A DNA stretch of 35,457 nt, taken from assembly GCA_022795445.1 (NCBI GenBank), contig JAAWGR010000027.1:1-35457 (forward strand), given 5' to 3'. Shown piece after piece: positions 8,132-35,432 of the stretch; within the stretch, counting starts at the first letter, position 1, and every line of letters starts with the position of its first letter. Source of the stretch: Oscillibacter sp. (GTDB taxonomy: Bacteria; Bacillota; Clostridia; Oscillospirales; Oscillospiraceae). The position numbers and the translations under genes are program-made. The notes under the pieces are model-generated. The model worked only from the letters and a program-made list of their open reading frames with translations. It was not told where the DNA came from and did no database searches.

Positions 8132-9580
8132 TTATGGTTCGATGCGTTTCCAGCTGGCCCCGCCCTTGACGTCGGTCAGCTCAATCCCACGCGCTTTCAG
8201 CTCGTCGCGGATGCGGTCAGCCTCCGGGAAATTCTTTGCTTTCTTCGCCTCATACCGTTTCAGGACCAGCGCATCGATCTCCGGGTCGCCCTCGCCGGTG
8301 ATCACGTATCCCTCCGCGCCGCTCTGCACCGTCTGGGCGGCTTTTTCCCGCAGCTTTGCGGCCTTTTCCAGCAGGCTCAGGGACAGCACCTCATCATACG
8401 ACCCAATCAACGCCAGCTTGGTCGCGTCGTTTGCCTTCGCTTTCAGCGCGTCAAACACGGCCGTTATGCCCATGGAGGTGTTGAGGTCGTTCCCCATCTG
8501 CTGGAGGAATTTGGCCTTGTATTCGTCAAAAACCGCCTGTTCCACTTCGCCGCCGGGTTTCAGCGCCGCGATCCGGTTCAGCAGTTTTCCGTAAGCCGCC
8601 GCCGCGTTGTCCAGATTCTCCCAGGTGAATACCAGCGCTTTGCGGTAGTGGCTTTGGAGGCAGAAGTACCGGTAGGCCAGCGGGTCATAACCGTTCTTTT
8701 CCAACAGCGAAACCGTCAAAAATTCGCCCTTGGATTTGGACATTTTGCCCTCCGGCGTATTCAGGTGATGCACATGGAACCACTGGGGACACCATGGATG
8801 GCCCAGATAGCTCTCCGACTGGGCAATCTCGTTCGTATGGTGCGGGAACGCGTTATCCACCCCGCCGCAGTGGAGGTCCAGGTATTCGCCGTTATACTTC
8901 ATCGAAATACCGGAACACTCGATATGCCAGCCCGGGTAGCCGACGCCCCATGGAGAATCCCATTTCAGCGCTTGGTCCTCAAATTTGCTCTTGGTGAACC
9001 ATAGGACAAAATCGTTCTTGCTCCGCTTGTTGGCGTCTTCTTCCACGCCCTCCCGGACGCCCACTTCCAAATCGTCCTCATCGTGGTCGTTGAAAATATA
9101 GTACCGCTCCAGCTTGGAGGTATCAAAATACACGTTGCCGCCCGCCAAGTAGGCGTAGCCGGTATCCACCAGTTTGGAAATGATCTTGATATATTCATCA
9201 ATGCATCCCGTAGCAGGCTGCACAACGTCAGGACGCTTGATGTTCAGCTTGCCGCAGTCGTCGAAAAAGGCATCTGTGTAAAACTGCGCGATTTCCATCA
9301 CGCCTTTGTGCTCCCGCTTCGCGCCTTTGAGCATTTTATCCTCGCCGGTATCCGCGTCGCTGGCCAGATGGCCTACGTCTGTGATGTTCATCACGCGGTT
9401 CACGTCATACCCCGCCTGCCGCAGATACTTTTCCAGTACATCCTCCATGATATAGCTTCGCAGGTTGCCAATGTGGGCAAAGTGGTAGACGGTCGGGCCG
9501 CAGGTGTACATCTCCACCCGGCCGGGGGTGTGGGTCTGGAATGCTTCTTTTTTGTGGGTTGCAGAATTGTACAGATACAT
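8132..9580 (-). CDS. cysS: Cysteinyl-tRNA synthetase
   Basis: 482-residue class I synthetase that charges tRNA-Cys. It shows the N-terminal CGPTVY with zinc ligand Cys27, the HIGN form of the HIGH motif (residues 36-39), GWHIECSG supplying further zinc ligands, and KMSKSKG. The C-terminal anticodon-binding helical region and the ending ELTDVKGGASWKR are typical. The ATG at 9580 follows GGAGG by 8 nt; an in-frame ATG at 9616 lacks this. It is the third gene after the Cys T-box at 11097-11305, which would couple its expression to uncharged tRNA-Cys. Confidence 0.97.
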   Translation of the reverse strand: MYLYNSATHKKEAFQTHTPGRVEMYTCGPTVYHFAHIGNLRSYIMEDVLEKYLRQAGYDVNRVMNITDVGHLASDADTGEDKMLKGAKREHKGVMEIAQFYTDAFFDDCGKLNIKRPDVVQPATGCIDEYIKIISKLVDTGYAYLAGGNVYFDTSKLERYYIFNDHDEDDLEVGVREGVEEDANKRSKNDFVLWFTKSKFEDQALKWDSPWGVGYPGWHIECSGISMKYNGEYLDLHCGGVDNAFPHHTNEIAQSESYLGHPWCPQWFHVHHLNTPEGKMSKSKGEFLTVSLLEKNGYDPLAYRYFCLQSHYRKALVFTWENLDNAAAAYGKLLNRIAALKPGGEVEQAVFDEYKAKFLQQMGNDLNTSMGITAVFDALKAKANDATKLALIGSYDEVLSLSLLEKAAKLREKAAQTVQSGAEGYVITGEGDPEIDALVLKRYEAKKAKNFPEADRIRDELKARGIELTDVKGGASWKRIEP

Positions 9581-9648
9581 AGGGTTCTCCTCCGTTTTTG
9601 TAAAGGGCGCATACACGCCTATCTTCCATCACATGCCTGATCAAAGGG

Positions 9649-12596: not shown

Positions 12597-12663
12597 GTGC
12601 AAATCATACAAGATTTTGACCGGCAGGGCCTAAATGTTGGGTTTTGCCGGTTTCGGAGGAACT

Positions 12664-14655
12664 ATGGCAAAAAAACAGGATTACGGCAACGACAGTATTT
12701 CCGCCCTCAAGGGCGCGGACCGGGTGCGGAAGCGTCCCGGCGTCATCTTCGGCTCCGACGGCCTGGACGGCTGTGAACACGCCGTCTTTGAGATCCTCTC
12801 CAACTCCATCGACGAGGCCCGGGAGGGACACGGTACCTCCATTACCGTCACCCGCTTCGCCGACCACAGCGTCGAGGTGGAGGACGCAGGCCGGGGCTGT
12901 CCGGTGGATTGGAACGAAAAAGAACAGCGTTACAATTGGGAACTGGTGTTCTGCGAGCTGTACGCCGGCGGCAAATATGACAATGTATCCGGCGACAACT
13001 ACGAATACTCCTTGGGCCTGAACGGCCTGGGTTCCTGCGCGACGCAGTACGCCTCCCGCTATATGGATGTCACCGTCTGGCGGGACGGCTTTGAATACCG
13101 CCTGCGGTTCGAGCGGGGAGAGATCGTGGGGGAATTGCAGAAAACACCTCTTCCGCGCAGCCAGGCCAAGAAAACCGGCACCCGTACCCGCTGGCTGCCG
13201 GATTTGGACGTGTTTACCGACATTGCCATTCCGGCAGAGTATTTCGCCGGGGTCATGAAGCGGCAGGCGGTCGTGAATGCCGGCATTACCTTTCACTTCC
13301 GCAACGAGACGGAGCCGGGGCAGTTTGAGGAGAGCCAATTCTGCTATGAGCACGGTATTGCCGATTACGTCGCTGAACTGGCAGGGGAGAACACGCTGAC
13401 GCCGCCGGTAGAGTGGCAGGCGGAAAAACGGGGCCGGGACCGGGCGGACAAGCCCGAATATAAGGTCAAGCTCTCTGCGGCGTTCTGCTTCTCCAATAAG
13501 GTGAACATCGTGGAGCATTACCACAACTCCAGCTGGCTGGAGCACGGCGGCAGCCCTGAAAAAGCTGCTAAATCGGCGTTTGTATCCGCCGTCGACGGAT
13601 ATCTCCGCCAGCAGAACAAGTACCAGAAAAACGAGGGCAAAATCACCTGGACCGACGTGGAAGACTGCCTGGTTCTGGTCACCAACAACTTTTCCACCCA
13701 GACCTCCTACGAGAATCAGACGAAAAAAGCCATTACGAACAAATTTGTCCAGGAAGCCATGACGGAATTCCTGCGGTCGAATTTGGAAATCTATTTCATT
13801 GAAAATCCCTTTGACGCGGACAAAATCGCGGGACAGGTCCTGCTGAACAAGCGGAGCCGGGAAAAGGCAGAGGAAGCCCGCCTGAACATCAAGAAAAAAT
13901 TATCAGGCAGCATCGACATTTCCAACCGGGTGCAGAAGTTTGTGGACTGCCGCACAAAGGAGGTCGCCCGCCGGGAAATCTACATCGTAGAGGGCGATTC
14001 CGCACTGGGCAGCGTCAAGCTGGCGCGGGATTCGGAGTACCAGGGTATTATGCCCATCCGGGGCAAAATTTTGAACTGCCTGAAGGCCGATTACGCCCGG
14101 ATTTTCAAGAGCGACATCATTATGGACCTGATGCGGGTATTGGGCTGCGGCGTGGAGGTGCAGAATAAGCATGTGAAGGACATGGCGGCCTTCGACCTGG
14201 GGAACCTGCGGTGGAACAAGGTGGTTATCTGCACCGATGGCGACGTGGACGGCTTCCAGATCCGTACGCTGGTGCTGACCATGCTCTACCGCTTGACGCC
14301 GACCCTCATCCGGGAGGGGTACGTCTATATCGCGGAAACGCCGCTGTTTGAAATCAACTGTGGGGAGAAGACATGGTTTGCCTACTCCGACAAGGAAAAA
14401 AATGACATCTTGAAAAAATTGGAGGGGAAGAAGTACAAGATTGACCGCTCCAAGGGCCTGGGCGAGAACGACCCGGACATGATGTGGCTGACGACCATGA
14501 ACCCAGAGACCCGGCGGCTGATCCGGGTGATGCCGGAGGACGTGGAGCGGACGGCGCAGGTCTTTGACCTGCTGCTGGGCGACAACCTCCAAGGCCGGAA
14601 GGACCACATTGCGGAAAACGGGTATAAGTATTTGGAAATGGCGGATATTTCCTGA
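12664..14655 (+). CDS. Divergent type IIA topoisomerase ATPase subunit (GyrB/ParE-like)
   Basis: 663 residues. The GHKL ATPase region has FEILSNSIDEA (catalytic Glu43, Mg-binding Asn47), followed by the transducer and TOPRIM domains. TOPRIM carries EGDSALGS (Glu443) where EGDSAGGS is usual, and DGDVDGFQI (Asp525, 527, 529) where DADVDGAHI is usual, so the metal ligands are intact. The C-terminal KGLGENDPDMMW block matches KGLGEMNPEQLW. The ATG at 12664 follows GGAGG by 4 nt. Together with the A-subunit-like gene at 15510 it forms a paralogous enzyme, likely additional to a standard gyrase; some clostridia carry such extra pairs. Specific role unknown. Confidence 0.92.
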   Translation: MAKKQDYGNDSISALKGADRVRKRPGVIFGSDGLDGCEHAVFEILSNSIDEAREGHGTSITVTRFADHSVEVEDAGRGCPVDWNEKEQRYNWELVFCELYAGGKYDNVSGDNYEYSLGLNGLGSCATQYASRYMDVTVWRDGFEYRLRFERGEIVGELQKTPLPRSQAKKTGTRTRWLPDLDVFTDIAIPAEYFAGVMKRQAVVNAGITFHFRNETEPGQFEESQFCYEHGIADYVAELAGENTLTPPVEWQAEKRGRDRADKPEYKVKLSAAFCFSNKVNIVEHYHNSSWLEHGGSPEKAAKSAFVSAVDGYLRQQNKYQKNEGKITWTDVEDCLVLVTNNFSTQTSYENQTKKAITNKFVQEAMTEFLRSNLEIYFIENPFDADKIAGQVLLNKRSREKAEEARLNIKKKLSGSIDISNRVQKFVDCRTKEVARREIYIVEGDSALGSVKLARDSEYQGIMPIRGKILNCLKADYARIFKSDIIMDLMRVLGCGVEVQNKHVKDMAAFDLGNLRWNKVVICTDGDVDGFQIRTLVLTMLYRLTPTLIREGYVYIAETPLFEINCGEKTWFAYSDKEKNDILKKLEGKKYKIDRSKGLGENDPDMMWLTTMNPETRRLIRVMPEDVERTAQVFDLLLGDNLQGRKDHIAENGYKYLEMADIS

Positions 14656-15509: not shown

Positions 15510-17750
15510 ATGCCAAAGAAGAAAACACCTGAGGGCAAAAAGCCCAAGGCCAACAACCCGAACGTGATGGGCCTCCACGCGGCGGTGGTGGAGCAGAACA
15601 TCACCGATACCCTGGAAACCAACTACATGCCCTACGCTATGTCGGTCATCGTCTCCCGCGCCATCCCGGAAATCGACGGCTTCAAGCCCTCCCACCGCAA
15701 ACTCCTGTATACCATGTACAAAATGGGCCTCCTCACCGGGGCCCGCACCAAGTCCGCCAACATCGTCGGCCAAACCATGCGCCTCAACCCCCACGGCGAC
15801 GCCGCCATCTATGACACCATGGTCCGCCTCTCCCGAGGCTACGGCGCCCTCCTTACCCCCTTCGTCGACTCCAAAGGCAACTTCGGCAAGCACTTTTCCC
15901 GCGACATGTCCTGGGCTGCCCCCCGTTACACCGAAGCCAAGCTTACTCCCATCTGCAGCGAGCTGTTCCGGGACATCGACAGCGATACCGTGGATTTTGT
16001 TGAAAACTATGACAACACCATGCTGGAACCGTCCCTCCTGCCCACCACCTTCCCCAACATCCTGGTTTCCGCCAACAGCGGCATCGCCGTGGGCATGGCC
16101 TCCCAGTTCTGCGGGTTCAACCTGAAGGAGGTCTGTGATACGACGGCGGCCTTTCTCAAAAATCCGGACTGCGATTTGCAGGAAACCCTGTTAGGCCCCG
16201 ACTTCCCCACTGGCGGCGAGCTGATTTGCGACCCCAGCGCCCTCAAGGAAATCTACAACACCGGCCGGGGCGGCGTGCGGGTACGGGCAAAGTGGCGGTA
16301 TGTGAAGACGGAGAACTTGATCGAGATCTACGAAATCCCCTACTCCACCTCAACAGAGGCCATATTGGACAAGGTTGCCGAACTGATTAAGACCGGCAAA
16401 GCCCGTGAAATCGCCGATATGCGGGATGAGACGGACCTCTCCGGCCTGAAGCTGGCCATTGACCTCAAGCGCGGCACAGACCCGGACAAGCTGATGGCCA
16501 AACTGTTCAAGCAGACGCCTCTGGAGGACGCTTTCTCCTGCAACTTCAACGTCTTGATCGCCGGGATGCCCCAAGTGCTGGGCGTGCGGCAGATTTTAGG
16601 GGAGTGGACGGCCTGGCGGACGGAATCCGTCAAGCGGCGGGTATACTTCGTCCTGGGCAAGCGGAAGGAAAAGCTGCACCTGCTCAAGGGCCTGCGGCGG
16701 ATTTTGCTGGATATTGACAAGGCTATCAAGATTATTCGGGAAACCGAGGCGGACGCCGACGTAGTGCCCAACCTGATGATCGGCTTCGGCATCGACCAGA
16801 CCCAGGCGGAATATGTGGCGGAAATCCGTCTGCGGAACATCAATAAGGAATATATTTTAAAGCGGCTCCAGGAGACCGATGCGCTGCAAAGTGAAATCGA
16901 CGACATGGAGGACATTTTGCAAAATCCCCGGCGGGTGAAAAAAATCATCCTGGATGAATTGAGCCAGGCCGCGAAAAAATATGGCGAGCCCCGCCGCACT
17001 ACCATCGTCTACGCCCACGAGCTGCCTGCACCCAGCGAGGAGGAACCGCCTGAGGCGGCCCCTGTTCATATTTTCCTCTCCCGGGAAGGCTACTTTAAGA
17101 AAATCACCCCCCAAAGCCTGCGCATGAGCAACGTGCAGAAGTACAAAGAGGGCGACGGCCTTCGGCAGTCCTTTGAAACCACCAGCACTGCCGAGGTCAT
17201 GTTCTTCACCGACAAGTGCCAGGTATATAAAACCCGCGTCAGCGAGTTCGACGACGCCAAGGCCAGCCTCCTGGGCGACTATGTGCCCGCAAAACTGGGC
17301 ATGGACCCAGGAGAAACCGTGCTGTATATGGTCCTGCCTGGGGACTACTCCGGCGGTTTGATTTTCTTCTTTGAGAACGGCAAGGCCGCCCGGGTGGAGA
17401 TCAAAGCCTACCAGACAGCCTCCAACCGGCGGAAGCTGACGGGCGCCTATTCGGATAAATCGCCCCTGCGGGCGGTGTTCCGGGTGGACGAGGAGCAGGA
17501 ACTGGCGGTTTATTCCACCGAACCCCGCTGCCTGATTTTCCATACCTCCCTCCTTACGCCCAAGACCACCCGCACTACCCAGGGCGCAGCCGTGCTGACG
17601 CTCAAGCCCAAATACCAGCTGGATACCGTGCGGCCCCTGGCGGAAACGCCGGTCGTTAACCAGAGCCGCTACCGCGCCCGGTCCCTGCCCTCGGCAGGCG
17701 CGCTGCTGCGGCAGGAGGATACGGAAGAGAAACAAATTACGCTGGAATAA
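15510..17750 (+). CDS. Divergent type IIA topoisomerase cleavage subunit (GyrA/ParC-like)
   Basis: 746 residues. The N-terminal YAMSVIVSRAIPEIDGFKPSHRKLLY matches the GyrA/ParC winged-helix signature. The catalytic tyrosine is Tyr140 within APRYTEAKLTP, preceded by its partner Arg139. A long coiled-coil tower and a C-terminal beta-pinwheel-like domain follow; the GyrA-box is not evident, which fits a topoisomerase IV-like enzyme that relaxes or decatenates. GAGG lies 14 nt before the ATG. It pairs with the B-like subunit at 12664, from which it is split by 854 nt holding decayed HTH genes. The LUD genes follow 22 nt later, so it may lead a long operon. Confidence 0.92.
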   Translation: MPKKKTPEGKKPKANNPNVMGLHAAVVEQNITDTLETNYMPYAMSVIVSRAIPEIDGFKPSHRKLLYTMYKMGLLTGARTKSANIVGQTMRLNPHGDAAIYDTMVRLSRGYGALLTPFVDSKGNFGKHFSRDMSWAAPRYTEAKLTPICSELFRDIDSDTVDFVENYDNTMLEPSLLPTTFPNILVSANSGIAVGMASQFCGFNLKEVCDTTAAFLKNPDCDLQETLLGPDFPTGGELICDPSALKEIYNTGRGGVRVRAKWRYVKTENLIEIYEIPYSTSTEAILDKVAELIKTGKAREIADMRDETDLSGLKLAIDLKRGTDPDKLMAKLFKQTPLEDAFSCNFNVLIAGMPQVLGVRQILGEWTAWRTESVKRRVYFVLGKRKEKLHLLKGLRRILLDIDKAIKIIRETEADADVVPNLMIGFGIDQTQAEYVAEIRLRNINKEYILKRLQETDALQSEIDDMEDILQNPRRVKKIILDELSQAAKKYGEPRRTTIVYAHELPAPSEEEPPEAAPVHIFLSREGYFKKITPQSLRMSNVQKYKEGDGLRQSFETTSTAEVMFFTDKCQVYKTRVSEFDDAKASLLGDYVPAKLGMDPGETVLYMVLPGDYSGGLIFFFENGKAARVEIKAYQTASNRRKLTGAYSDKSPLRAVFRVDEEQELAVYSTEPRCLIFHTSLLTPKTTRTTQGAAVLTLKPKYQLDTVRPLAETPVVNQSRYRARSLPSAGALLRQEDTEEKQITLE

Positions 17751-22020: not shown

Positions 22021-24675
22021 ATGAAAAAGCTCGTGACCGGCGTCTTGGCCCATGTGGACGCAGGCAAAACCACCCTGTCCGAGGCTTTGCTGTACCAGAG
22101 CGGGGCCATCCGGCGGCTGGGCCGCGTCGACCACCGCGACGCCTTTTTGGATACCCACGCCATTGAGCGGGAACGTGGGATCACCATTTTCTCCAAACAG
22201 GCGGAATTTTCTTATGGAGACCTGGCTGTCACACTCCTGGATACGCCGGGACATGTGGATTTCTCTGCAGAGGCCGAACGTACCTTACGGGTGCTGGACT
22301 GCGCCGTCCTGGTTGTCAGCGGCAGCGACGGCGTACAGGCCCATACCCGTACCCTTTGGCGGCTGCTGGAACAATACGGCGTGCCGGTGTTCCTGTTTGT
22401 AAACAAGATGGACCTCGCCGGGGACCGCCGGGAAACGCTCCTCTCCGAACTCAAGGAGCGGCTGGACAGCAGCTGCATCGACTTCGGCGCGCCGGCGGAT
22501 TCCGTCGCGGAAGAGGCCGCTATGTGCGGGGAAGAAGCTCTGGAGGAATATCTGGAAACGGGCGGACTCTCCGCGGAAACGCTTTCCCGGCTGATTGCAG
22601 AACGCAAGCTGTTCCCCTGCTTCTTCGGCTCCGCCCTGCGGCTGGACGGCGTAGACGCCCTCCTGGACGGCCTGGACCGTTTCGCCCCTGTGCCAGATTA
22701 CCCGGCAGATACCTTTGGCGCACGGATATTCAAGGTCGCACGGGATGAACGGGGAACGCGGCTGACCTATCTGAAAGTCACCGGCGGTACGCTGCGGGTA
22801 AAAAACCTGCTCACAAACCGCCGGCCTGATACTCCGGAGGAAGCTGTGTGGGAGGAAAAAGCCGACCAGCTACGGGTGTACTCCGGGGTAAAATTCCGCC
22901 CCATTGAGGAGGCCCCCGCCGGGACCGTATGCGCGGTAACGGGCTTGAGCCGCACCATCCCGGGCCAGGGGCTGGGTTTTGAAACCGCATGGACCTCTCC
23001 AGTCCTGGAACCGGTTTTGGCCTACCAGGTGGAAACCGACGCCGACCCCCATACCGCCCTCCAGCAGCTGCGGCTTCTGGAGGAAGAAGACCCACAGCTC
23101 CACGTCGCCTGGAACGGACAAGCAATCCGCGTCCATCTCATGGGCGAGGTGCAGACCGAAATTTTACAGCGGCGCCTGCGGGAACGCTTCGGCCTGGAGG
23201 CGGCTTTCGGAGCGGGACGCATCGTCTACCGGGAAACCATCGCGGAACCCGTGGAGGGCGTGGGCCACTTTGAACCCCTGCGGCATTATGCAGAAGTGCA
23301 TCTGCTCTTAGAACCCGGCCCGCGGGGCAGCGGACTGCGCTTCGGAACCATCTGCCCAGAGGACCAGCTGGACGGGCATTGGCAACGCCTTATTTTGGCC
23401 CACCTGATGGAAAAACCCCACCTGGGCGTACTCACAGGAGCGCCGGTCACAGACCTCAAAATCACCCTCACTGCAGGCCGCGCCCACGAAAAGCATACCG
23501 AGGGCGGCGACTTCCGGCAGGCTACCTACCGCGCCGTGCGCCAGGGCCTGATGTCCGCGGAAAGCATCCTGCTGGAACCCTGGTATGCCTTCCGGCTGGA
23601 ATTGCCCGCAAACCAATTGGGCCGGGCTGTGGGGGACATCCAGCGCATGAACGGTGAAACCGAACCTCCAGAAAACCTGGGAGAGGACGCCGTGCTGTCC
23701 GGTGCGGCTCCTGTATCCGCCATGCGGGACTACGCCAAGGAGGTGGCCGCCTATACCCGGGGACAGGGCCGCCTGCTCTGCCGTCCGGCAGGCTACCGCC
23801 CTTGCCCAGATGCAGAAGCCGTCATCGCCGCCAGCGGCTACGACCCGGAACGGGATGTGGAAAATCCGGCGGATTCCGTGTTCTGTTCCCATGGGGCAGG
23901 GCATACGGTGAAATGGAATGAAGTCTCCGCCCACGCCCATATAGACAGCGGCCTCCGGCTGAACCCGCCGGAACCTGAACCCGATGAAACGCCTACATTC
24001 CGGCGTTCCCAGAGCTACGCGGGGACCATCGAGCAGGATAAAGAATTACAGGCTATCTTTGAACGCACCTATGGCCCCATCAAACGCCGGGCCTTTCTTC
24101 CGCCTAAACCGCCGCGGCGTCCGGCTGCGGAACCAGGCGGCAGCGCTCCCCGCGCAATCCAAAAACAACCCTCCGGACCGGAATATGTCCTGGTGGACGG
24201 ATACAACATCATCTTCGCCTGGGACGAGCTGAAAGCCATCGCCCAGGATAGCCTCGACGCCGCCCGCAAAGCCTTGTGCGATATCCTCTGCAACTACCAA
24301 GGGTGCCGGAAATGTGAAGTCATTACCGTCTTCGACGCCTATAAAGTCCGGGGCGGCAAGGGGTCCGTGGAAACCTACCACAACATTCACGTCGTCTACA
24401 CCAAAGAGGCCGAAACCGCCGACGCTTATATCGAACGCGCCACCTATGAGATCGGCAAAAAACACCGCGTCAAAGTCGCTACCTCCGACGGCCCCGAACA
24501 ACTCATCATCTTAGGCCATGGCGCTTTACGGGTGTCGGCCTCCGGCTTCCGGGAGGAGGTGGAGCAGGTACAGGGACAAATCGCCGGTATCCTGCGGAAC
24601 AATAACCGCCGGAACCACGGGACGCTCCGGGCCGCAATGGAAAAGGCCGTGAAAGAAAAGAGGAATGCACCATGA
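22021..24675 (+). CDS. TetM-like ribosomal GTPase fused to Rae1/YacP NYN endoribonuclease
   Basis: 884 residues. Residues 1 to about 650 follow the TetM/EF-G layout: AHVDAGKT (10-17), ERERGIT switch I, DTPGH (74-78, catalytic His kept), NKMD (128-131), EF-G-like domains II-V, and the TetM-type end LLEPWYAF and VLSGAAPVSAMRDY. The domain IV tip, YSPVSTPADFR in TetM, reads HEKHTEGGDFR here, so true tetracycline protection is doubtful. A linker with CSHGAGHTVKW and a proline-rich stretch leads to residues 721-884, a complete YacP/Rae1 NYN domain: VLVDGYNIIFAW (Asp726), VFDAYKVRGG, AETADAYIE, ATSDGPEQ. Rae1 of B. subtilis cleaves mRNA in the ribosomal A site. The fusion implies GTPase-directed delivery of the nuclease (inference). 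It overlaps the next gene by ATGA. Confidence 0.93.
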   Translation: MKKLVTGVLAHVDAGKTTLSEALLYQSGAIRRLGRVDHRDAFLDTHAIERERGITIFSKQAEFSYGDLAVTLLDTPGHVDFSAEAERTLRVLDCAVLVVSGSDGVQAHTRTLWRLLEQYGVPVFLFVNKMDLAGDRRETLLSELKERLDSSCIDFGAPADSVAEEAAMCGEEALEEYLETGGLSAETLSRLIAERKLFPCFFGSALRLDGVDALLDGLDRFAPVPDYPADTFGARIFKVARDERGTRLTYLKVTGGTLRVKNLLTNRRPDTPEEAVWEEKADQLRVYSGVKFRPIEEAPAGTVCAVTGLSRTIPGQGLGFETAWTSPVLEPVLAYQVETDADPHTALQQLRLLEEEDPQLHVAWNGQAIRVHLMGEVQTEILQRRLRERFGLEAAFGAGRIVYRETIAEPVEGVGHFEPLRHYAEVHLLLEPGPRGSGLRFGTICPEDQLDGHWQRLILAHLMEKPHLGVLTGAPVTDLKITLTAGRAHEKHTEGGDFRQATYRAVRQGLMSAESILLEPWYAFRLELPANQLGRAVGDIQRMNGETEPPENLGEDAVLSGAAPVSAMRDYAKEVAAYTRGQGRLLCRPAGYRPCPDAEAVIAASGYDPERDVENPADSVFCSHGAGHTVKWNEVSAHAHIDSGLRLNPPEPEPDETPTFRRSQSYAGTIEQDKELQAIFERTYGPIKRRAFLPPKPPRRPAAEPGGSAPRAIQKQPSGPEYVLVDGYNIIFAWDELKAIAQDSLDAARKALCDILCNYQGCRKCEVITVFDAYKVRGGKGSVETYHNIHVVYTKEAETADAYIERATYEIGKKHRVKVATSDGPEQLIILGHGALRVSASGFREEVEQVQGQIAGILRNNNRRNHGTLRAAMEKAVKEKRNAP

Positions 24676-25094
24676 AAACTCTATGCGCCGCAGGAACCGT
24701 CTTCGCCGCTTGTACCGCCCTGCGCTGGTACCTGGACCGCACCAGCCGCCAGGATACCTTCTGCTGCAAAGGCCGCATCCGCGTGACCGGCTGCCGCAAC
24801 GCCGGCGCGGCGTTCGGGCTGCCGGTCCCTGAGAAAGCCTTGGAACCATTGGCCGCGGCTGCATTCGGGAGCATCTGGGCCCTGCGGCGGCACAGCCCTT
24901 TAGGCGCGGGACTGGCTTTGGGCGGCGGCGCAAGCAACCTCTGGGAACGGTCCCGCTATGGCGCGGTGTTTGATTACGTACAGTTCCCCAGCGCGCCGAA
25001 GCCTTGGAACCGGTACGTGTTCAATCTGGCAGATTTCGCCATCCTGGCCGGGGGCGCAGCCCTGGCGGCGGGACGGAAGGGAAAGGAGCGGTAA
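24672..25094 (+). CDS. Divergent signal peptidase II (LspA-like)
   Basis: 140 residues, shorter than the usual ~160. It retains the LspA blocks: NAGAAF (43-48), SNLWERSRYGAVFDY with catalytic Asp101, and FNLADFAI with catalytic Asp121. The NxxDR position reads NLWER. Hydrophobic segments are fewer and weaker than in standard LspA. If active it would cleave lipoprotein signal peptides in the membrane. Its ATG overlaps the stop of the GTPase-nuclease gene (ATGA), which suggests translational coupling. A canonical lspA is probably elsewhere. Possibly a specialised paralogue. Confidence 0.8.
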   Translation: MKTLCAAGTVFAACTALRWYLDRTSRQDTFCCKGRIRVTGCRNAGAAFGLPVPEKALEPLAAAAFGSIWALRRHSPLGAGLALGGGASNLWERSRYGAVFDYVQFPSAPKPWNRYVFNLADFAILAGGAALAAGRKGKER

Positions 25095-35358: not shown

Positions 35359-35432
35359 AGCGGGTTTGTGTAAAGGTAGCACAGCAGACTCTGACTCTGT
35401 ATGTGAGGGTTCGAATCCTTCACCCGCTGCCA
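35359..35432 (+). tRNA. tRNA-Gln (anticodon CUG)
   Basis: A complete cloverleaf: acceptor AGCGGGT/ACCCGCT, D-arm GTGT/GCAC, anticodon stem GCAGA/TCTGT with loop CTCTGAC (anticodon CTG), T-arm GAGGG/CCTTC with TTCGAAT loop, discriminator G and an encoded CCA end. It reads CAG codons. More tRNA genes may follow beyond the window edge. Confidence 0.96.

Follow-up and report, generated by a model that had tools for sequence, protein, structure and literature searches.

The Fusion Gene and Its Domains

The window analyzed here, the 35,457 nucleotides of contig JAAWGR010000027.1 of Oscillibacter sp. (assembly GCA_022795445.1), encodes a protein that joins a translational GTPase (trGTPase) of the EF-G/Tet type to an NYN_YacP (Rae1-type) endoribonuclease domain. 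The fusion gene (22021..24675, + strand, as are all of its features given below) starts with ATG and encodes 884 amino acids (aa) with no internal stops. An earlier note on this DNA had described a single frame holding a full GTPase and an NYN/YacP domain, and the analysis confirms it; the DTPGH motif with its histidine H78, the tip HEKHTEGGDFR, and the cysteine motif (C622) are also as described there. The same two-part frame, at 47–69% identity, is present in 29/29 further family-level loci and in 19/20 class-level regions examined (the exception, L103, lies on a contig end); this recurrence excludes chance or a local frame error.

The GTPase half comprises a GTP-binding domain (residues 6–223; 22036..22689; Pfam GTP_EFTU, E 4e-52), domains II and III (residues 233–397; 22717..23211; EF-G_D2 at 233–312 and EFG_III at 335–397, both marginally below Pfam cut-offs), domain IV (residues 399–513; 23215..23559; EFG_IV), which is more strongly conserved in the family than any other domain, and domain V (residues 517–598; 23569..23814; EFG_C). 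The G domain motifs together with domains II–V place the protein in the EF-G/Tet fold; our fold comparison spans residues ~1–611, that is, the GTPase half without the NYN domain. Within domain IV, loop I (RHYAEVHL, residues 421–428; 23281..23304) is shorter than in EF-G, and the tip was located by alignment as HEKHTEGGDFR (residues 489–499; 23485..23517). Domain V is followed by a family-specific C-terminal tail (residues 599–642; 23815..23946) with the motif SVFCSHGAGHTVKW..V....H.

A variable, flexible linker (residues 643–719; 23947..24177) connects the two halves. In the predicted structure it is disordered, with pLDDT <50 at residues 649–668 and 688–715; the model as a whole has a pTM of 0.58, and we leave the position of the NYN domain relative to domain IV uninterpreted. 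Linker conservation is 0.33, and the spacing from W632 to D726 ranges from 76 to 160 residues (median 91), as calculated for 152 of a set of 160 fused proteins that was chosen by the DTPGH and DGYN motifs, so that D726 and H78 are partly conserved by construction; that set omitted L149, L164, L190, L248, and L249.

The NYN_YacP domain (residues 723–880; 24187..24660) scores 167.6 bits in Pfam (cut-off 24.6; E 3e-49), in keeping with the earlier assignment of residues 721–884 to NYN/YacP, and residues 717–884 match Bacillus subtilis YacP (PDB 5mq8/5mq9) with E 1e-24. Conservation was counted in fused frames of ≥780 aa with no motif selection (164/166 loci, L103 and L164 being too short). Four acids are present in 164/164 of these frames: D726 (24196..24198), which aligns with D7 of B. 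subtilis Rae1; D772 (24334..24336); D801 (24421..24423), which aligns with Rae1 D81; and D823 (24487..24489). The last three are also present in 26/26 standalone copies, which were selected by their DGYN motif, meaning that the equivalent of D726 is conserved in them by construction. With a score over the curated cut-off and the conserved acids, the window protein belongs to the Rae1/YacP family. The GTPase half is likewise conserved: K129 and D131 are found in 164/164 frames, K16 in 163/164, H11 in 158/164, and H78 (22252..22254), which we take to be the counterpart of the catalytic histidine of EF-G, in 163/164. Catalytic residues are conserved in both halves, in support of the earlier note.

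Residue 774 (24340–24342), which follows the sequence VFDA, is Tyr in 159/160 fused NYN domains vs. His in 20/26 standalone ones; Y774 is a fused-specific signature near a conserved acid. Departures from the consensus were seen in a few loci. In two named assemblies, Tyr replaces H78 (L149) and DGFN replaces DGYN (L190). Three members of one family (f6; L248, L249, and L250) are strongly divergent fusions, all with altered tips and without the tail cysteine; two of them have DAYN for DGYN, with the aspartate kept.

Distribution of the Fusion

The NYN_YacP domain was identified in 92/150 genomes of the window's own family, in frames of ≥602 aa except in G026, G057, G103, and one piece of G131; the full-length or near-full-length GTPase–NYN homologs among them are 50–69% identical to the window protein. 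Across the class, PF05991 was matched in 249/391 genomes (248 over the cut-off) and the query was matched at 1e-100 in 164/391. These 164 sort into 140 genomes with the fusion, 22 with an unfused GTPase, and two that are unclear (G372, with pieces on two contigs, and G279, which is cut). The fused state was assigned in 132 of the 140 by query coverage or frame length, and in the other eight, which have contig ends or shifted frames, by an NYN domain in a frame of ≥295 aa. The same architecture, which the earlier note proposed to look for across Clostridia, is common in that class, and it is mostly single-copy per genome and spread over many families.

A phylum-wide sample yielded the GTPase in 29/398 genomes, including 21 outside the class (15 with coverage extending into the NYN domain, six without). 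In a scan of named genomes, at least 590 of 599 stretches were confirmed and 80 were kept; those titles of the 80 that we recognize are of Clostridia, except for the assembly L194, titled Thermoflexaceae, which we take to be a Chloroflexota family.

Among the class genomes with the unfused GTPase, seven that are 85–99% complete have zero NYN_YacP matches (G178, G183, G210, G226, G331, G355, and G481), as do the own-family genomes G053 and G100, so that the GTPase also has a role apart from Rae1. Another 15 genomes encode the unfused GTPase and NYN_YacP as separate genes.

Probable Displacement of Standalone YacP

A separate NYN_YacP over the cut-off is present in 1/140 fused genomes (G477) vs. 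107/250 non-fused genomes (G372 left out), in counts that ignore shared ancestry. Fragments of 21 bits account for the second matches in G284, G349, and G390; G281 carries the fusion twice. In all, 108 fusion-free genomes with an NYN_YacP match of any strength were taken to have the separate form; the frame is 169–216 aa long for 61 among the matches listed.

The surroundings of standalone yacP offer a second line of evidence. We inspected 26 of the standalone loci with the best scores. An upstream frame is visible in 25 of them, and 21 of these 25 have an RlmB-cluster gene there; a SigH-cluster gene follows downstream in 25/26, each cluster having been identified through one member. A SigH search of 14 genomes gave a match in 13 (none in G000); beside the match no RlmB was recognized in six, the order RlmB–YacP–SigH is retained in G477, and RlmB and SigH are neighbors without yacP in six fused genomes (G284, G349, G370, G426, G484, and G495), with gaps of 88–594 bases. 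We read this as loss of the separate yacP from the position it held ancestrally, after the fused copy had taken over its task. In G495 (L295), the gap of 205 bases contains a weak YacP-like stretch (60 residues, 35% identity, 25 bits, with E for the gap alone), which by its similarity may be a decayed yacP remnant. The single NYN_YacP of the Oscillibacter genome itself is the fused one, not a separate gene between rlmB and sigH. In the window, cysS is located at 8132–9616 and the next gene in its direction encodes a membrane transporter; in B. subtilis, cysS is followed by mrnC, rlmB, and yacP.

Replacement of standalone Rae1 by the fusion in its lineages is thus supported by distribution and synteny. 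The history of the nuclease domain is less sharply drawn in a tree of 45 fused and 26 standalone NYN rows, which has poor resolution: without constraint, the tree does not unite the fused rows and requires two changes, and 0/200 bootstrap trees have one change; a single fused clade is not rejected (p-AU 0.527).

The GTPase Half as a Separate Lineage

Atkinson (2015; PMC4342817) reported a Tet–NYN_YacP fusion architecture in ten clostridial species, grouped such proteins with Tet, and suggested tetracycline resistance based on an RNase. By that account the window protein would be a Tet ribosomal protection protein plus a nuclease, and annotation leans the same way: its best NCBIfam match is tet_protect, and public records name family members, fused or not, as TetM/TetW/TetO/TetS family tetracycline resistance proteins (NZ_CP143948.1, NC_007930.1, and other plasmid records), while others are annotated as translation factor GTPase family proteins. 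However, the tet_protect score is 394.6 bits vs. a cut-off of 775, the score with the Tet M/W model is 241.1 vs. 1100, and the protein falls below every curated Tet cut-off. Six relatives and the window protein lie at 308–450 bits with tet_protect, whereas two Tets from the same family (L244 and L245) pass with 821–822; a third Tet-like row (L243) also fails, with 486. In addition, 8/9 family genomes that encode a full-length, NYN-less Tet-like protein carry the fusion too, and no neighboring gene recurs beside it. Together with the separate clade and the different tip described below, these observations make tetracycline resistance a very improbable function, and they bear out the earlier proposal of some other role.

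In the GTPase tree (64 rows), fused and unfused members form one clade (SH-aLRT 99), apart from the Tet-like rows (97) and the EF-G rows; this is a quick tree of 46 fused, 13 unfused, only three Tet-like, and two EF-G rows, with long outgroup branches. All 46 fused rows group together (99) with one unfused row inside, a gene from a megaplasmid of Ligilactobacillus salivarius; the remaining 12 unfused rows form a group with weaker support (85). The tree requires two changes of the fused label, which we read, with the caution due to a tree of this kind, as one fusion followed by one later loss. The L. salivarius gene (L198, on pMP118) adjoins a copy of rpsN, and may have lost its NYN domain secondarily.

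The lineage has its own tip and tail. At the tip of domain IV, the window protein aligns HEKHTEGGDFR with YSPVSTPADFR in Tet (L244) and HEVDSSEMAF in EF-G, and the family consensus is H.KHT.GGDFR, with H492, T493, D497, and F498 in 164/164 frames, G496 in 163, K491 in 162, and H489 and R499 in 161; the non-Tet loop noticed earlier is shared across the family. In the tail, G625 and W632 are found in 164/164, C622 in 161/164, and H640 in 160/164. The cysteine motif that had been taken for part of the linker is real, but the 13 unfused relatives examined stop at or just past the tail motif SVFC..G.....W....MH, and it therefore belongs to the GTPase itself. The label "TetM-like" is loose, given a lineage of its own with a different tip and tail.

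Conservation was compared in 24 of a hand-picked 25 fused proteins, 12/13 unfused proteins, and 30 EF-G proteins. Domain IV exceeds the G domain in the fused (0.82 vs. 0.70) and unfused (0.74 vs. 0.61) sets; in the EF-G control the values are 0.83 vs. 0.81, and domain III is highest (0.92).

We conclude that the fusion is real, widespread, and probably misnamed. It is carried by many gut Clostridia and is often filed as a tetracycline-resistance gene; among the chromosomal genes of commensals that bear the TetM/W/O/S family name, some probably do not confer resistance, a point to be heeded when resistomes are counted.

Genomic Context and Mobility

The fusion gene follows a radical SAM gene at a distance of 28 bases and shares 4 bases with a short signal-peptidase-II-like gene (24672–25094; 140 aa; Peptidase_A8, 58 bits; below all eight listed NCBIfam signal peptidase cut-offs). 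Elsewhere, the window encodes a second EF-G-like GTPase (201–2363; 720 aa), which scores 861.7 bits with NF009381 (cut-off 583) and lies below the EF-G equivalog cut-off, and a pair of type II topoisomerase subunits of GyrB/ParE and GyrA/ParC type (12634–14655 and 15510–17750), which miss every listed NCBIfam cut-off. Rfam gives a single match at its gathering threshold in the window, a tRNA at 35359. The genome also encodes SmpB.

A conserved partner gene was rejected, as the largest neighbor cluster covers seven of 101 loci (92 anchored). Terminator-like sites within 250 bases upstream, as expected of the attenuators or leaders of antibiotic-inducible genes, showed no clear excess: among the 92 anchored loci, 76 were suitable for the count, and 20/76 of these fused genes have such a site vs. 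43/255 controls. Carriage on mobile elements or phages was also rejected: two of 1320 matching plasmid records cover ≥80% of the query, on replicons of 252 and 518 kb, and 0/49 viral-contig loci matched past residue 645 of the query. Near-full copies of the fusion do occur in two GenBank records titled "Bacteriophage sp."; in one of these (L201; MT835563.1), 3/7 scanned neighbor frames match Pfam, as an NAD(P)H-hydrate dehydratase, a Sir2 protein, and a peptidoglycan-binding protein. As these are bacterial metabolic genes, this record is probably a bacterial contig.

These data bear on an antiphage role, which the earlier note had entertained and in which the protein, acting in abortive infection, would cut ribosome-bound mRNA when a phage infects the cell. 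Such cutting would be a plausible defense output, but PADLOC matched 0/5 window proteins (the fusion and four neighbors), giving no indication of membership in a defense system, no neighbor recurs in more than 7/101 loci, and the gene is mostly present in one copy per genome across many families and, as noted, matched viral contigs in its GTPase portion at most. We regard this role as remote in the extreme.

A Proposed Function on the Ribosome

On balance we favor, as probable by a modest measure, that the fusion protein is a tethered Rae1, in which an mRNA endonuclease dependent on the ribosome is linked flexibly to a trGTPase that enters the A site. An activity like that of Rae1 on the ribosome, as the earlier note envisaged, draws indirect support from the near exclusivity of the two forms and from the absence of yacP between rlmB and sigH. 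Also in favor of this reading are the invariant NYN acids and the near-invariant H78, the GTPase tree with its two label changes, a domain IV that exceeds the G domain in conservation (unlike in EF-G), the SmpB gene, and published descriptions of Rae1 as dependent on translation and active in the A site. As judged from the EF-G fold, the GTP form would bind where the ribosomal A site is accessible, for instance on paused ribosomes, and the conservation of the domain IV tip and C-terminal tail suggests that these family-specific elements would read or clear that site. Domain IV would enter the A site, and the tethered NYN domain would cut the A-site mRNA after the GTPase has acted; a sequential hand-over is favored because domain IV and NYN can hardly occupy the A site together, although cutting at the mRNA entry side is a possible alternative. 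The truncated complex might then be handed to tmRNA–SmpB, for which the SmpB gene is present. Cutting in the A site would in this way be timed by the GTPase.

A bolder extension, conceivable but rather doubtful, is that the GTPase serves as both timer and gatekeeper, letting Rae1 cleave the codon in the A site only on ribosomes where that site stays empty. The fusion would then be a one-protein clostridial counterpart of eukaryotic no-go decay, and the unfused GTPase a so far undescribed factor that monitors the A site together with Rae1, in trans, in other lineages.

Several observations weigh against the tethered-Rae1 reading. The GTPase occurs without any NYN_YacP in seven class genomes, which speaks against a tight coupling, and in G053 and G100, and 134/391 genomes have neither form, so that the function is dispensable. 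Domain IV and Rae1 would be competitors in the A site, so that cutting calls for a sequential step or another site of action, and standalone Rae1 works in B. subtilis and is not known to need a GTPase of the fusion family there. The exclusivity counts carry no correction for kinship, and G477 keeps both forms. The tip stretch is conserved to a like degree in EF-G (0.91 vs. 0.88 in the fused family) and domain III tops the EF-G profile, though the EF-G set is less diverse (mean identity 0.75 vs. 0.60). One fused frame, L149, is without H78.

Some of these points fit a looser arrangement, in which the halves are largely independent: the GTPase would clear or sense the A site in the manner of a Tet/EF-G-like factor and the NYN domain would merely be kept near ribosomes, with no GTP-timed cutting. 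The unfused GTPase in 22/391 genomes (seven without any NYN_YacP), the long and variable linker, and the L. salivarius homolog that lies in the fused clade without NYN are all consistent with this. Yet the fusion has been retained nearly throughout the fused clade (two label changes), though separate genes would have served, and we consider independent halves unlikely.

The substrate could also be a structural RNA, with the NYN half maturing or degrading rRNA or tRNA and the GTPase delivering it to ribosomes as a factor in ribosome assembly or decay. A part in rRNA/tRNA maturation had been put forward for NYN domains (cited in PMC4342817), but the closest characterized relative, Rae1, is described as a translation-dependent mRNA endonuclease that acts in the A site (PMC10100781; PMC12320835; PMC6613710), with the spyTA and bmrCD mRNAs among its targets according to titles cited in PMC12320835, and the most constrained domain of the fusion family is domain IV, the A-site element of EF-G. 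A role in rRNA or tRNA metabolism is, in our estimation, improbable.

A protein in which nature has joined Rae1 to an A-site GTPase, and which seems to have displaced the free enzyme in a large portion of the Clostridia, makes it directly testable how Rae1 arrives at its ribosomes and selects among them.

Comparison With Known Systems

The fusion has been in print since 2015; our searches show no functional test of it. The architecture is that of the Atkinson (2015; PMC4342817) fusions, of which the window gene is a further case; relative to the parts of that paper available to us, the replacement of Rae1, the unfused relatives, the near exclusivity, the rlmB–sigH pairs without yacP, and the conservation of domain IV are additions. 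Our literature search found no other paper on the fusion among those listed, although an earlier mention in the Rae1 papers of Leroy (2017) or Condon (2018) is possible; in PMC7180214, NYN is mentioned solely in a reference.

The window protein shares its NYN domain, with aligned aspartates, with B. subtilis Rae1/YacP (PDB 5mq8 and 5mq9), but the latter is described as a separate 170-aa protein encoded beside yacO (the RlmB homolog). The window protein is colinear with TetM/TetO over residues ~2–593, has 29–36% identity to Tet proteins, and differs from TetM/O/W in tip loop, C-terminal tail, and clade. Compared with elongation factor G, its G domain is ~45 residues shorter than that of Thermus thermophilus EF-G, and it is further distinguished by the shortened loop I, the KHTxGGDFR tip, the extra tail, and the nuclease. 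SmrB and MutS2, compared here by their published descriptions in part, are likewise bacterial routes that couple ribosome stalling to mRNA cutting or ribosome splitting. Their domains differ from those of the GTPase–NYN fusion, and they are described as acting on collisions.

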